From positions 124,001 to 188,000 of the forward strand of contig CAMDHZ010000003.1 of NCBI GenBank assembly GCA_945898275.1: DNA of 64,000 nucleotides, in the 5' to 3' direction. Shown here one piece after another: positions 1 to 4,967 of the stretch (the first letter of the stretch is position 1; each line of letters opens with the position of its first letter). The translations under genes were made by a program, and so were the position numbers. Under the pieces are notes generated by a model. That model worked only from the letters and a program-made list of their open reading frames with translations, searched no databases and was not told the origin of the DNA. Origin of the DNA: Chitinophaga pinensis. Lineage in GTDB: Bacteria > Bacteroidota > Bacteroidia > UKL13-3.

Positions 1-2
1 AA

Positions 3-92
3 TTTAAAAGTAAAAACTCAATTTTCGAAAGTTTGGATAATGATGTAACCTTGCCAAACTCAAATGATTTACAAAAAATGCTATTACAATAG
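3..92 (+). CDS. 3' end of an upstream gene, product unknown
   Basis: An open frame enters from the left edge and runs about 29 codons to TAG at 90-92. It lies on the same strand as the adenylation gene that starts 21 bp later, so it is probably the previous gene of the same operon. The visible residues end in NDLQKMLLQ, and no family can be recognised from so short a tail. That it is coding is inferred only from the open frame and the tight spacing. Confidence 0.35.
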   Translation, partial: FKSKNSIFESLDNDVTLPNSNDLQKMLLQ

Positions 93-113: not shown

Positions 114-1613
114 ATGAATCAAAAAAGAACTCAATTTACCGAGCAAATTCTCAATAAAATTGACTCAAACATACTTAAATTTGGAAGTAGAAATGCTTTT
201 TGCATAGCTGAAAAATTCTACACGTATAAAGATTTAGATGAAAAAATTAATGCTTTTAGTGCAAAAATCAATGACCTACAAATTGCTCAAGGCATTATTG
301 GACTAGTTGTAAATGATGATATAGAAACTTATGCGAGCATATTAGCAATATGGAAAGCTAATAAAGCTTATGTTCCTTTGCATCCAAAGCAGCCAACTGA
401 AAGAAATTTAGAAATACTAAGTCAAACTGGAAGTAACTTTTACATTGACTCTGAGAATTCAAATTTTGGTGAAAAATTAATTAATATAAACTCAGCAATC
501 TCAAAGCCAACTGGTTTGGTTATAAATAATATTGACAGCCCTGATGACTTATGTTATATATTATTTACTTCTGGTAGCACTGGACAACCAAAAGGAGTTC
601 AAATTAATTGCGAAAATTTGGTGACTTTTGTTAATTCTTTCGAATTGGCAGGAATAAAGCTAAATGAAAACGATAAGTGTCTTCAGGCTTTCGATTTAAC
701 ATTCGATGTTTCGGTTCAGGCATTTCTAATTCCACTTTTAAGTGGAGCGTGTGTTTACACGATCCCACATGATAAAATTAAATATACTTATGCATATATA
801 CTTATGGATGATCACCAATTAACCTTTGGAGTATTTGCGCCGAGTTTAGTTAAATTACTAAGACCAAATTTTGAAGAAATCAATATCCCAAGTATGCGTT
901 ATTGTATTTTAACAGCTGAAGCATCACCAGTAGATTTAGTTAAGGAATGGCATAATTGCATACCCAATTCTAAAATATTTAATTTTTACGGACCTACTGA
1001 GGCAACTATATATTGCACGTCATATGAGGTGCCACTTGATGGAAGTGAAATTAAACATACAAACGGATTATTATGCATTGGTAGACCTTTTGAAGGTTTG
1101 AATTACTTAATAGTTAATGAAGAAAATAATTCGGTTGATAAAAATGTAAAAGGTAATCTATTGATATCAGGACCTCAATTAACTATTGGTTATTGGAATA
1201 ATAAGGAAAAAACCTCAGAGGTTTTTATAGAAATAAATGGAACAAACTATTACAAAACTGGGGATGTTGTATTTGAGGATAATGATCATCAAATTCATTA
1301 TTTGGGTAGGGCAGACCAACAAGTAAAAATTCAAGGGTATAGAATTGAATTAGGAGAAATAGAATACCATGCTCGTCAATTGATTGATGGAAAGTATGCG
1401 ATAGCATGTGCCGTAAAAGGAAAAAATGATGATAACGAGATTGTTCTATGCTTAGAATCAGACCCAATAGATAATGATGCTATAAACAAACACTTATCTG
1501 TAATTTTGCCCTCATATATGATACCCAGCAAATATTATTTTCATGATATATTTCCTTTAAATCAGAATGGGAAAGTTGACAGAAACGCAGTTAAAAAGCT
1601 TTTTAACTTATGA
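114..1613 (+). CDS. Stand-alone amino-acid adenylation enzyme, DltA-like (AMP-binding family)
   Basis: This 499-residue protein has the ordered core motifs of the ANL adenylation superfamily: FTSGSTGQPKG near residue 151, YGPTEATIY near 292, YKTGD near 380, YRIELGEIE near 409, and the catalytic lysine of NGKVDR near 487. It has no condensation or carrier domain, and its length matches DltA-type D-alanine:carrier-protein ligases. The family activates an amino acid as the adenylate and loads it on the phosphopantetheine arm of a separate carrier protein. The gene two places downstream encodes such a carrier, and MBOAT and SGNH genes follow. The amino acid substrate cannot be read from the sequence. 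The stop overlaps the next start (ATGA), so translation is probably coupled. Confidence 0.85.
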   Translation: MNQKRTQFTEQILNKIDSNILKFGSRNAFCIAEKFYTYKDLDEKINAFSAKINDLQIAQGIIGLVVNDDIETYASILAIWKANKAYVPLHPKQPTERNLEILSQTGSNFYIDSENSNFGEKLININSAISKPTGLVINNIDSPDDLCYILFTSGSTGQPKGVQINCENLVTFVNSFELAGIKLNENDKCLQAFDLTFDVSVQAFLIPLLSGACVYTIPHDKIKYTYAYILMDDHQLTFGVFAPSLVKLLRPNFEEINIPSMRYCILTAEASPVDLVKEWHNCIPNSKIFNFYGPTEATIYCTSYEVPLDGSEIKHTNGLLCIGRPFEGLNYLIVNEENNSVDKNVKGNLLISGPQLTIGYWNNKEKTSEVFIEINGTNYYKTGDVVFEDNDHQIHYLGRADQQVKIQGYRIELGEIEYHARQLIDGKYAIACAVKGKNDDNEIVLCLESDPIDNDAINKHLSVILPSYMIPSKYYFHDIFPLNQNGKVDRNAVKKLFNL

Positions 1614-2278
1614 ACATAGAAATTAGAAAAGCATCAGAAAAAGAAGTTCCGTTTCTTGTGAGAACAATAATTGATGCCGAAAAAAGTGGCACTTCAATTT
1701 TGCCTTATGAGAAAATTTTTGGACTTAGTGAGGACGAAACAGAAAATATTTTAAATAGCATTTTAAAACAAAACGAAGAAGATTGTGAATTATCAATGGA
1801 TGCCTTTTTGGTTGCTTTTCATGATAACAAACCAATTGGTGCTGTTAGTGCTTGGATAGAGGCATTAAATGATGTTTCTTCATCGGTTATTAAAGGAAAT
1901 CTTCTAAGGCAGCATCTATCAATGAAAAATTTAATAAATGCGAGTAAATATTGGCAAAATTTGCAAGAAGTACACTTTGACATACCAGTAAAATCAATTC
2001 AAATTGGGTTGGTTTATGTAGCTGAAGAAGCTAGAGGAAATCGACTAGCTGAAAAGTTAATTAAACAACAACTAGAGGTGTTACAAAAAAAAATAAATCA
2101 AAAAGAAGAAAAAGTTTTTGTTCAAGTTTATCATAATAACTTATCTGCGATTAAAGCTTATAATAGAATAGGTTTTGAAATTATTGAAACTAAAGAAAAC
2201 TTAGACAAAAATCTACTTGGTGTTCTTCCGGATACAAAAAAGGTATTAATGCAATTAATAAATATAAAAAATGAATAA
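1610..2278 (+). CDS. GNAT-family N-acyltransferase within the Dlt-like operon
   Basis: A 222-residue protein with a GNAT fold. The acyl-CoA-binding motif A is visible around residues 137-152 (GLVYVAEEARGNRLAEKL), followed by the usual NxxAIKAYNRIGF segment of motif B. It overlaps the adenylation gene by 4 bp and the carrier-protein gene by 8 bp, so it is an integral operon member. GNAT enzymes move an acetyl or other acyl group from CoA to an amine. An inference is that it caps the amino group of the amino acid carried by the neighbouring carrier protein, or of a sugar in the target polymer. Canonical dlt operons have no GNAT gene. Confidence 0.75.
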   Translation: MNIEIRKASEKEVPFLVRTIIDAEKSGTSILPYEKIFGLSEDETENILNSILKQNEEDCELSMDAFLVAFHDNKPIGAVSAWIEALNDVSSSVIKGNLLRQHLSMKNLINASKYWQNLQEVHFDIPVKSIQIGLVYVAEEARGNRLAEKLIKQQLEVLQKKINQKEEKVFVQVYHNNLSAIKAYNRIGFEIIETKENLDKNLLGVLPDTKKVLMQLINIKNE

Positions 2279-2510
2279 AACAGAAGTAATCTCTCAATTG
2301 ACCCCTATTTTCCAAATAGTATTCAACAATCCTGAAATTCAAATTTCAGAAAATTTAACTGCCAATGATGTTAAAGGATGGAATTCTTTAACTCATATGA
2401 TTTTGATGAGTAATATTGAAGAAAGTTTTAAAATAAAATTCTCATTAAGAGAAATCAATAAAATGCAGAATGTTGGAGATTTAATATCATTAATCGAAAG
2501 TAAAAAATAG
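2271..2510 (+). CDS. Acyl/aminoacyl carrier protein, DltC-like
   Basis: A 79-residue helical carrier protein. The phosphopantetheine attachment site is Ser39 in the motif GWNSLTHM, the form (WNSL) common in carriers that serve stand-alone adenylation enzymes. The size and the helical segments around the site match the PP-binding family. It should carry the group activated by the product at 114-1613 and present it to the MBOAT protein encoded immediately downstream. The start overlaps the GNAT gene by 8 bp and the MBOAT start follows 2 bp after the stop. Confidence 0.88.
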   Translation: MNKTEVISQLTPIFQIVFNNPEIQISENLTANDVKGWNSLTHMILMSNIEESFKIKFSLREINKMQNVGDLISLIESKK

Positions 2511-2512
2511 TT

Positions 2513-3949
2513 ATGACTTTTACTTCAGTCCTATTTCTTCCATATTTAGTTGTATTTTTAATTTTGTTTTATTTATTAAAACAAAACACACTTAGATGGC
2601 TATTATTATTAGGTGCTAGTATTGCATTTTACTTAAATATTCATTTAGGATTTACCCTAATATTATTTTTGGTTTCAATCATTACCTATTTGACATCCAT
2701 AGGAATTAAGAACTCGAAAAACGAAAAATCAAGAGTAAATACATTTCGAATTGGAATATTTTTAACAATATTGCCATTATTAGTATCGAAATATTTACTG
2801 ACGTTGTTTAAATTATTAAATGACTATTTTTATTTTACTGAACAAAGCGATAATCCTTTATCTTGGATTATACTTCCAGTTGGAATTTCGTTTTATACTT
2901 TTATGGCATTGGGTTATATTATTGATGTATATAATGAAGAAATTGAGGCTGAACCTAATTATGGTAAGTTATTGCTATTTTTATCTTTTTTTCCACTTGT
3001 TTTATCCGGACCAATTGAAAGAGGTAAAAACTTGTTAATTCAATTTTCAAATTTGCCAAAATTTGATTTCCATTTCATAAATCAAGGCATAAAATTGATG
3101 ATTTGGGGGTACTTTATGAAACTAGTTGTGGCTGATAGATTAGGTTTATATATAGATTTAGTATACAGTAATCCAAACAACTACTCGGGTTCAAGTATTG
3201 CTTTAGCAGCAATTTTATATCCCTTTCAAGTATATGCAGATTTAGGTGGATATTCTCTAATAACTATAGGAGTTGGCCAATTATTGGGCATAAAAATTAT
3301 TCCCAATTTTAATAGACCATTTTTTGCTTCTACTATGGCAGAATTTTGGCGTCGTTGGCATATGTCTTTAATAAATTGGTTCAATAAGTATCTTTATACA
3401 CCTTTATCTTATGAGTTTAGGAAATTAGGAATCTATGGAATATTAATTTCCTTAATGATTACATTCATTGTTAGTGGAATTTGGCATGGTGCTAACCTCA
3501 CATTCATTGTTTGGGGTATTCTTCAAGGCTTATTTTTAAGCATTGAAGCCACCATGTTATATTTAAAACAAAAAAAAGGGACAGAGTTAAATTCAAATTA
3601 CTTTAAATTACCTGCTATTTTTGGAATGGCTTTGACATTTTTCTTATTTGCAATTTCACAAGTTTTTGCAAGAGCAGAAAGTGTTCCAAATGCGATTTTT
3701 TTATTCAAAAAAATATTTTCAAATTTAGGAATGCCATATATTAGTTCAATATCACTTTTAGTAGGTCTGTTGGCATTATTTATGTTACTTTCATATGACT
3801 TTATGCTTGAATTTAACAAAAAGAGAATTTTGCTATACTTAAATAAATATAAACCACTAAAGTATTTTATCCTCTCGTTAATAATATACAGTATATTAAC
3901 TATTGGAAATACGGGTTCAGAAGGGAAATTTATTTACTTTAATTTTTAA
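2513..3949 (+). CDS. MBOAT-family membrane O-acyltransferase, DltB/AlgI-like
   Basis: A 478-residue polytopic membrane protein with about ten hydrophobic segments. MBOAT signatures are present: FWRRWHMSL near residue 278 and the conserved SGIWHGA block with the presumed catalytic His325. DltB and AlgI take an acyl group from a carrier in the cytoplasm and pass it across the membrane to a polymer or a partner SGNH protein. The gene lies between a carrier-protein gene and a DltD/SGNH-like gene, which points to the DltB role. Bacteroidota have no teichoic acid, so the acceptor here is unknown; lipopolysaccharide O-chain or exopolysaccharide is inferred. Confidence 0.88.
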   Translation: MTFTSVLFLPYLVVFLILFYLLKQNTLRWLLLLGASIAFYLNIHLGFTLILFLVSIITYLTSIGIKNSKNEKSRVNTFRIGIFLTILPLLVSKYLLTLFKLLNDYFYFTEQSDNPLSWIILPVGISFYTFMALGYIIDVYNEEIEAEPNYGKLLLFLSFFPLVLSGPIERGKNLLIQFSNLPKFDFHFINQGIKLMIWGYFMKLVVADRLGLYIDLVYSNPNNYSGSSIALAAILYPFQVYADLGGYSLITIGVGQLLGIKIIPNFNRPFFASTMAEFWRRWHMSLINWFNKYLYTPLSYEFRKLGIYGILISLMITFIVSGIWHGANLTFIVWGILQGLFLSIEATMLYLKQKKGTELNSNYFKLPAIFGMALTFFLFAISQVFARAESVPNAIFLFKKIFSNLGMPYISSISLLVGLLALFMLLSYDFMLEFNKKRILLYLNKYKPLKYFILSLIIYSILTIGNTGSEGKFIYFNF

Positions 3950-3950
3950 T

Positions 3951-4967
3951 ATGATTAAACGGAAAATATTTCAATTTCTGCTTGTTTTTATGATACCAAC
4001 AAGCATAATGTTTGGATCATATATTTATTTTGACCCCTTTAAAATAATTTGGCAAAATAAATCTCAATTTGAATCTGAAGTGCCTTTAAATAGAGATTTT
4101 GTCTCAACTGAATTATTCATTCAACACTATAAAAGTCAACAGTATAATTCGTTTGTTTTTGGAAGTTCAAGAACCATATCTGTGATGGCTGAGGATTGGA
4201 TGAAATATATTCCTAAAGATTCCAAAGTGTTTAAATATGATGCTGCAGGGGAAAACATATATGGAATTTATTGTAAACTAAGGTATTTAAACTCCATAAA
4301 CGACATTGCCATTGACAATTGTCTAATTTTTATATGTCGTGACGCATTTCACAAGGAAATGAATAGTAGTAAACATTTGAATATTAAGCATCCTCTCATT
4401 AGCCAGGAAAGCTGGATTCAATTTCACTTTACGCATATTAAAGTATATTTTACTTTCAAATTTCTTTTAGGCTTTTTTTATTATAAAATTACTGGAAAAA
4501 TTAACTCTTTAAATGAGGATATTATTCAAATAAATAAAACACATTTAGATATTTCAAATAATCAAATTTATGTAGATGGGTTTGAAAATGAATTGTCAAA
4601 AGGTGAGGATGAGTATTATAAAAAAAATAATAACCTTTTTCATATTGAAGAAGAATCATTGGATAAGAAAGCAAAAAGAATTGAAAAGGAGGGATTTAGT
4701 TCAGAGACAATTTATATGCTAAAGGAAATTAAAAAAATCCTTATTAATCATCATACAAATTATAAAATTATTTTATCTCCAACGTTTGACAAAATTCCTT
4801 TTAACAAAAGTGCCTTAGGTACATTAAATGAAATTTTTCCACCTGATAGAATATTTAATTTTACCGGAACCAATTGGATCACCGAGAACAAATACTATTG
4901 GTACGAAAATTACCATTTCAGACCATTTATTGGAGATTCAATACTCAAAAAAGTTTATGAAAAGTAA
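3951..4967 (+). CDS. Membrane-anchored SGNH-like protein, DltD-like partner of the MBOAT
   Basis: I place the start at the ATG at 3951, 1 bp after the MBOAT stop; the longer frame from 3903 would overlap the MBOAT gene. The 338-residue product has one N-terminal membrane helix (about residues 5-25) and then a long extracytoplasmic part. The block FGSSR (residues 70-74) resembles the catalytic-serine block of DltD/SGNH esterases, and the C-terminal ENYHFRP segment could supply the histidine. Sequence similarity to classical DltD is weak by eye; the call rests on motif order and operon position. A likely role is final transfer of the acyl or aminoacyl group to a surface polymer. Confidence 0.6.
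   Translation: MIKRKIFQFLLVFMIPTSIMFGSYIYFDPFKIIWQNKSQFESEVPLNRDFVSTELFIQHYKSQQYNSFVFGSSRTISVMAEDWMKYIPKDSKVFKYDAAGENIYGIYCKLRYLNSINDIAIDNCLIFICRDAFHKEMNSSKHLNIKHPLISQESWIQFHFTHIKVYFTFKFLLGFFYYKITGKINSLNEDIIQINKTHLDISNNQIYVDGFENELSKGEDEYYKKNNNLFHIEEESLDKKAKRIEKEGFSSETIYMLKEIKKILINHHTNYKIILSPTFDKIPFNKSALGTLNEIFPPDRIFNFTGTNWITENKYYWYENYHFRPFIGDSILKKVYEK

Follow-up and report, generated by a model that had tools for sequence, protein, structure and literature searches.

Work on PatA and PatB distinguishes two ways in which an MBOAT protein and its SGNH partner are supplied with an acyl group: the Dlt type uses a carrier protein and a separate DltX, and the Pat type uses acyl-coenzyme A (acyl-CoA) and a fused hexapeptide, with no carrier (PMC12148441). 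The hexapeptide motif FXYXXF is found in both PatA and DltX and its tyrosine carries the acyl group; MBOAT-SGNH pathways other than Dlt have no carrier (PMC12148441). Here we analyse a window (the whole stretch of 64,000 nucleotides (nt), G000:C3:124001-188000) of a Chitinophaga pinensis genome, in which five consecutive plus-strand open reading frames (ORFs) at positions 114-4967 encode, in this order, an adenylation enzyme, a GNAT, a carrier protein, an MBOAT and an SGNH protein. An initial annotation of the DNA had described these five genes and their order, which the ORF listing confirms, and had read them as a Dlt-like operon with an extra GNAT. The family to which they belong combines a carrier with a fused hexapeptide, and the Dlt and Pat traits are therefore separable. 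We consider it somewhat more probable than the contrary that the five genes form a carrier-fed MBOAT-SGNH envelope-acylation pathway delivering an N-acylated amino acid to a surface polysaccharide.

The gene run, its carrier and its fused shuttle

The five genes are tightly packed. The GNAT gene, annotated from the beginning as overlapping, shares 4 nt with the adenylase gene and 8 nt with the carrier gene, and the later gaps are of 1-2 nt, the carrier gene lying 2 nt from the MBOAT gene. There is no room between the five genes for a further ORF that could encode a separate DltX; instead, the shuttle motif is fused to the C-terminus of the MBOAT, and an FXYXXF-like ending is present on practically every complete MBOAT copy among the relatives. 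The MBOAT reaches 157.5 bits with the curated model TIGR04091 (LTA_dltB), whose cut-off is 375. The carrier falls slightly short of the Pfam threshold (17.7 vs 20.8 bits) and has the phosphopantetheine site W-N-S-L, with the serine kept in 34 of 34 aligned carriers. Such a protein needs a 4'-phosphopantetheinyl transferase. The corresponding family (holo-ACP synthase, PF01648) had no match in the source genome, from which nothing is concluded because the assembly, in 106 contigs, is incomplete.

In a quick tree of 69 MBOATs, some of them collected through the GNAT, those that adjoin a carrier group together (7 changes vs a shuffled mean of 22, with 0 of 500 shuffles as low), consistent with adaptation of these MBOATs to a carrier. 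The window MBOAT falls in a branch of 24 rows, and for 22 of these a carrier is encoded nearby. Among random MBOAT-SGNH pairs of Bacteroidota with 35-38% identity, most have no adjoining carrier.

The initial annotation had proposed that the adenylation enzyme activates an amino acid rather than a fatty acid, and this is supported: the equivalents of the pocket residues Asp235 and Lys517 are retained and the amino acid adenylation model TIGR01733 matches at E 4e-93 (312.3 bits, just under the cut-off of 317.4). With the pocket Asp in place and amino-acid adenylation models scoring best, activation of a fatty-acid or polyketide starter is rejected. The curated DltA models, on the other hand, were both missed (TIGR01734, 276 bits vs a cut-off of 560; NF003417, 293 vs 476). 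Pocket positions were assigned by motif alignment onto the GrsA numbering. The pattern D[VI]Q[VAST][IL][TC][FL][IV]YK is common to the window enzyme and to 18 adenylases from 16 other loci of very different families, so that the adenylases of this class likely share a single conserved amino acid substrate. A second class has the code DLMLLCVIFK, and further classes read DFICLC.. and DFFALC.... The DltA code is closer to the second class and different from DVQVITFIYK of the window adenylase, whose substrate, judging from these residues, is probably not D-alanine. The proline code, DVQLIAHVVK, has D235, V236, Q239, I299 and K517 in common with the window code; the other five pocket positions differ and we do not claim proline as the substrate.

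The fifth protein had no match in Pfam or NCBIfam, and the DltD family PF04914 matched neither it nor any other protein of the genome. Its longest frame opens at a TTG (3903), and the ATG at 3951, just past the MBOAT stop, is the likelier start. An AlphaFold model, with a mean predicted local distance difference test score (pLDDT) of 66, has the SGNH fold. The top Foldseek matches are DltD (6pfx and 6o93, E 2e-3 to 5e-3), followed by PatB; in a structure comparison SGNH proteins reach Z scores up to 12.7, and DltD scores 11.5 over 251 residues with a root mean square deviation (rmsd) of 5.3. The serine (GxS, GSSR in the window) and the histidine are invariant in 15 aligned SGNH sequences. In the C-terminal YENYH of the window protein, this histidine would be accompanied by a Glu where Asp is usual, a placement to be read with the model's pLDDT of 66.

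The five-gene set is the end of an exopolysaccharide locus, as the genes upstream and those divergent from them, within the neighbourhood examined (C3:112000-131000), are exopolysaccharide genes; the polysaccharide setting invoked in the initial annotation is thus found immediately upstream. Directly upstream on the same strand lie genes for an XrtX/XrtF-like exosortase, a small membrane protein, a LIC_10190-family membrane protein and a PseB/WbpM-like dehydratase, the exosortase and LIC_10190-family genes within L001:7384-10027 (G000:C3:119383-122026). Divergent to these are genes for an UpxY antiterminator, a Wza-like export protein, a Wzc-like kinase and TviB- and TviC-like nucleotide sugar enzymes. 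The full dehydratase gene (L001:10123-12093, that is G000:C3:122122-124092) stops 21 nt before the adenylase gene and is probably in one operon with it. Downstream, from 5154, our reading of the ORFs gives an unrelated cytochrome/alternative complex III respiratory operon. We reject a nearby lipid pathway, since polysaccharide genes lie on one side and the respiratory operon on the other. Promoter and terminator signals did not rise above chance. The adenylase was found in 0 of 18 other genomes of the genus, and we therefore regard the set as accessory. The features are collected in the table.

Table. Features of the gene run and of its upstream edge, in window positions
Feature	Positions	Strand	Basis
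PseB/WbpM/CapD-like UDP-sugar 4,6-dehydratase, 3' end of the gene	1..92	+	NCBIfam PseB E 5e-59, below cut-off
Stand-alone amino-acid adenylation enzyme (loader)	114..1613	+	Pfam AMP-binding E 7e-56; pocket code DVQVITFIYK
GNAT acyltransferase, subfamily tied to adenylase and carrier	1610..2278	+	Pfam Acetyltransf_1 E 9e-10
Acyl/aminoacyl carrier protein, predicted modification site Ser39 in GWNSL	2271..2510	+	NCBIfam acyl carrier E 6e-6
DltB-like MBOAT, GIWHG histidine motif (GIWHGA)	2513..3949	+	Pfam MBOAT E 8e-18
Acyl-shuttle hexapeptide codons, FIYFNF, MBOAT C-terminus	3929..3946	+	sequence itself
Membrane-anchored SGNH acyltransferase (DltD/PatB-like)	3951..4967	+	alignment, AlphaFold, Foldseek

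Recurrence and variation of the module

We looked for the module in other genomes with the GNAT protein alone as bait, using a pattern search built from a four-sequence GNAT alignment; the resulting list of loci is not exhaustive. A close GNAT was present in 3 of 395 genomes drawn from the phylum, the source genome included, and a scan of 84,980 species genomes returned 25 loci, practically all from Bacteroidota and spanning Flavobacteriaceae, Chitinophagaceae, Bacteroidales, Marinilabiliaceae, Ignavibacteria and others. The neighbourhood search proposed in the initial annotation thus shows that the gene set recurs across Bacteroidota. Counting the window and two loci found separately, 28 loci were compared. 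Consecutive adenylase, GNAT and carrier genes on one strand occur in 22 of them, and in 15 of these 22 the MBOAT is next on the same strand; it lies nearby on the opposite strand in L029, L034 and L051 and some 3 kb away in L027. MBOAT and SGNH genes usually stand beside the trio in the relatives; one cultured bacterium with all five genes is Arcticiflavibacter luteus SM1212 (L033). By comparison, 13 control loci whose GNATs are only distant relatives had no adenylase and no MBOAT nearby (0 of 13 for each). The five-gene order is not due to chance. Pairwise distances of adenylases and GNATs correlate (r = 0.80), as co-inherited genes should, though this is a correlation that shared descent alone can produce. 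One locus, L034, is labelled Candidatus Planktophila (Actinomycetota) and holds a Bacteroidota-like module; since its MBOAT is nearly identical in sequence to that of L029, it is probably a misbinned contig.

The composition of the module varies in several ways. Three loci have a VOC protein resembling methylmalonyl-CoA epimerase between adenylase and GNAT (L043:8560-8967, L050:7157-7567 and L051:6350-6757), possibly an epimerase of the carrier-bound residue. The adenylase-GNAT pair is doubled in L036 and L040. Both operons of L039 place a 4HBT thioesterase ahead of the carrier, and one of the two has a GNAT of a different subfamily in the same slot (adenylase, GNAT, thioesterase, carrier, MBOAT, SGNH). 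In two loci, L063:1498-4378 and L100:1381-4352, FkbH is followed by carrier, MBOAT and SGNH, with neither adenylase nor GNAT. The loader appears exchangeable because FkbH stands there in place of adenylase and GNAT, and these cassettes suggest that a glyceryl-type group is delivered by the same kind of machine. SGNH proteins beside the module carry a C-terminal LysM domain in L027:12621-14207 and L029:9722-11311, which suggests peptidoglycan as the acceptor there.

Ignavibacteria show arrangements of their own. In L025, L045 and L052 the GNAT is flanked by SGNH-carrier-MBOAT cassettes. A longer pathway is seen in L026:174-9360 and L052:232-5660, where adenylase, GNAT and carrier are followed by genes for a short-chain dehydrogenase/reductase (SDR), an AMP-ligase and LuxE-like and LuxC-like proteins; by reading of the ORFs, L026 runs adenylase, GNAT, adenylase, GNAT, carrier, and then SDR, ligase, LuxE-like and LuxC-like genes.

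Other loci have the trio or parts of it apart from an MBOAT. In L030 (Ferruginibacter paludis) the trio occurs with FdtA, a sugar aminotransferase and a NeuD-type acyltransferase, and there is no MBOAT in the locus; the genome has four MBOATs elsewhere, one of them within an FkbH-carrier-MBOAT-SGNH cassette. This gene set is what an N-acyl-aminoacyl amide on an amino sugar would be expected to need. L042:4971-13787 has an adenylase, four GNATs, FkbH and one carrier in a single run, which adjoins a gene resembling muconate-lactonizing enzymes and dipeptide epimerases. Adenylase, carrier and a GNAT of another subfamily are found in L057:748-3069 and L058:1036-3303, and adenylase, carrier and a 383-residue protein in L054:299-3191, all three with no MBOAT in their short flanks.

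The proposed GNAT step and its alternatives

In the pathway that we favour, the adenylase would activate one particular amino acid and load it onto the phosphopantetheine arm that Ser39 of the carrier protein bears, and the GNAT would N-acylate the amino acid while it is carrier-bound. The N-acyl-aminoacyl group would then pass the inner membrane, the MBOAT taking it off the carrier and placing it on the tyrosine in its C-terminal FIYFNF on the periplasmic side. The serine of the SGNH protein would accept the group and form an ester with a hydroxyl of the polysaccharide that the adjoining locus makes and exports. The first, third and fourth steps follow from families, motifs, folds and synteny; the second step, which amino acid is used and which polymer accepts it we infer. 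Transfer from the carrier through the MBOAT tyrosine to the SGNH serine is well supported, and action of the GNAT on the carrier-bound amino acid moderately so. Gram-negative polysaccharides are known to bear amide-linked N-acetyl-D-alanyl, N-acetyl-L-alanyl, N-acetylglycyl and N-(3-hydroxybutyryl)-alanyl groups (PMC3210612). N-acylation on the carrier is the likeliest role of the GNAT because N-acetyl-aminoacyl groups of this kind are known and because the GNAT goes with the pair of adenylase and carrier and with the carrier-linked MBOAT. The trio of L030, whose gene set is the one expected for such amides, also speaks for this role.

The AlphaFold model of the GNAT (pLDDT 95) has the normal fold of this superfamily, with 4m85 as the top structural match (Z 18.1, rmsd 2.8 over 180 residues), and by both profile and fold its closest solved relatives are GNATs of the acetyl-CoA type, acetyltransferases of small amines and of protein N-termini. 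Its P-loop reads RGNRLA and departs from the CoA-binding consensus Q/R-x-x-G-x-G/A, which is complete in 0 of 21 GNATs of loci whose adenylase has the DVQ/DIQ code; the pattern of the class is R-G-x-x-L, lacking the consensus glycines. Active GNATs with atypical P-loops exist, and AAC(2')-Ic binds CoA through a similarly atypical loop, G-Q-R-L-V (PMC4964394). We therefore take the P-loop as a deviation and not as exclusion from the superfamily.

Several points weigh against our interpretation. Since the P-loop of the window class departs from the consensus, acetyl-CoA as the donor of the GNAT is not certain. The SGNH protein was modelled with modest confidence, and its predicted triad acid is Glu, not Asp. 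Some loci (L030, L042 and L049) have no adjacent MBOAT. Finally, the clustering of MBOATs and the correlation of distances are partly due to shared descent, and the loci were picked via the GNAT.

The same P-loop would suit a GNAT that uses the aminoacyl-carrier as donor, passing the aminoacyl group to an amine, either on a nucleotide amino sugar or on a second amino acid, with the MBOAT and SGNH proteins handling some other acyl group. The trio of L030, which stands with amino-sugar genes in a locus lacking an MBOAT, points the same way, as do L057 and L058, where adenylase, carrier and GNATs of other subfamilies stand beside sugar or surface genes. However, most loci have an MBOAT in or beside the trio and the carrier-adjacent MBOATs form their own cluster, so that the carrier most likely feeds the MBOAT; moreover, Ignavibacteria GNATs adjoin carrier/MBOAT/SGNH cassettes with no adenylase in the piece seen (L025, L041 and L045). 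We judge a donor role of the carrier towards the GNAT to be unlikely. The atypical loop would also be compatible with addition of a long acyl chain, taken from an acyl carrier in the manner of FeeM, so that a lipid-like group would be delivered; acyl-carrier donors are used by some GNAT-fold enzymes. This we find highly improbable, given that the closest solved relatives are of the acetyl-CoA type and that the neighbourhood has no lipid genes.

The Dlt-like gene logic and the resemblance to DltB and DltD would be explained by a plain Dlt-type system, placing an un-acylated, cationic amino acid ester on a surface polymer, with the GNAT as an accessory that, for example, clears mischarged carrier or acts elsewhere in the sugar pathway. 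AlmEFG and the dlt-like systems of Bordetella are precedents in Gram-negatives. An accessory GNAT, though, fits poorly with its presence in the same slot in 22 of the 28 loci, its replacement by another GNAT in L039 and its duplication together with the adenylase in L026, L036 and L040, and we regard this explanation as quite improbable. If N-acylation on the carrier is true, the amino acid ester would be neutral, not cationic, and the pathway would provide an enzymatic means of attaching N-acyl-aminoacyl groups to surface sugars. The adenylase-carrier-GNAT trio is small and probably soluble.

Comparison with known systems

Literature searches on the combination of adenylase, GNAT, carrier, MBOAT and SGNH found nothing relevant. 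Tentatively, and with slightly less than even confidence, we propose that Bacteroidota possess a class of carrier-fed MBOAT-SGNH systems not described until now, with interchangeable loaders (adenylase and GNAT, or FkbH), which would esterify extracellular polysaccharide, or peptidoglycan where the SGNH protein has LysM, with N-acyl-aminoacyl or glyceryl-type groups.

The Dlt system (DltA, DltC, DltB, DltX and DltD), which D-alanylates teichoic acids, likewise has a stand-alone adenylase, a carrier, an MBOAT and an SGNH protein encoded by consecutive genes, with the carrier as acyl donor, as we infer for the window. The window system differs in its Gram-negative host, its polysaccharide locus, its extra GNAT and the order A-GNAT-C-B-D; further, it has no DltX, its shuttle tyrosine is fused to the MBOAT, its pocket code is another one and all curated Dlt models missed it. 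From the initial reading as a Dlt-like operon with an added GNAT, the logic of a carrier feeding MBOAT and SGNH is therefore retained, whereas membership in Dlt is not, in view of the Pat-type fused shuttle, the non-DltA pocket and the missed models. AlmEFG of Vibrio cholerae, which places glycine on lipid A, is also Gram-negative and uses an adenylase and a carrier to load an amino acid for a surface molecule, but AlmG is a lysophospholipid-acyltransferase-like enzyme and not an MBOAT with an SGNH protein, and there is no GNAT.

PatA/PatB and other MBOAT-SGNH acetylation systems (alginate, cellulose) share with the window the MBOAT with a C-terminal FXYXXF and the SGNH partner; they use acetyl-CoA and no carrier (PMC12148441), whereas in the window system adenylase and carrier supply the acyl group. 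The type of group that we propose resembles the N-acyl-aminoacyl amino sugars of O-antigens (Qui3N and Qui4N with N-acetylalanyl or N-acetylglycyl groups) (PMC3210612), although these are amides and the window system would make an ester outside the cytoplasm. The window system is thus a variant of MBOAT-SGNH envelope acylation and not DltABCD: because the tests for membership in Dlt failed, we file it outside Dlt, though it works like Dlt and like Pat.

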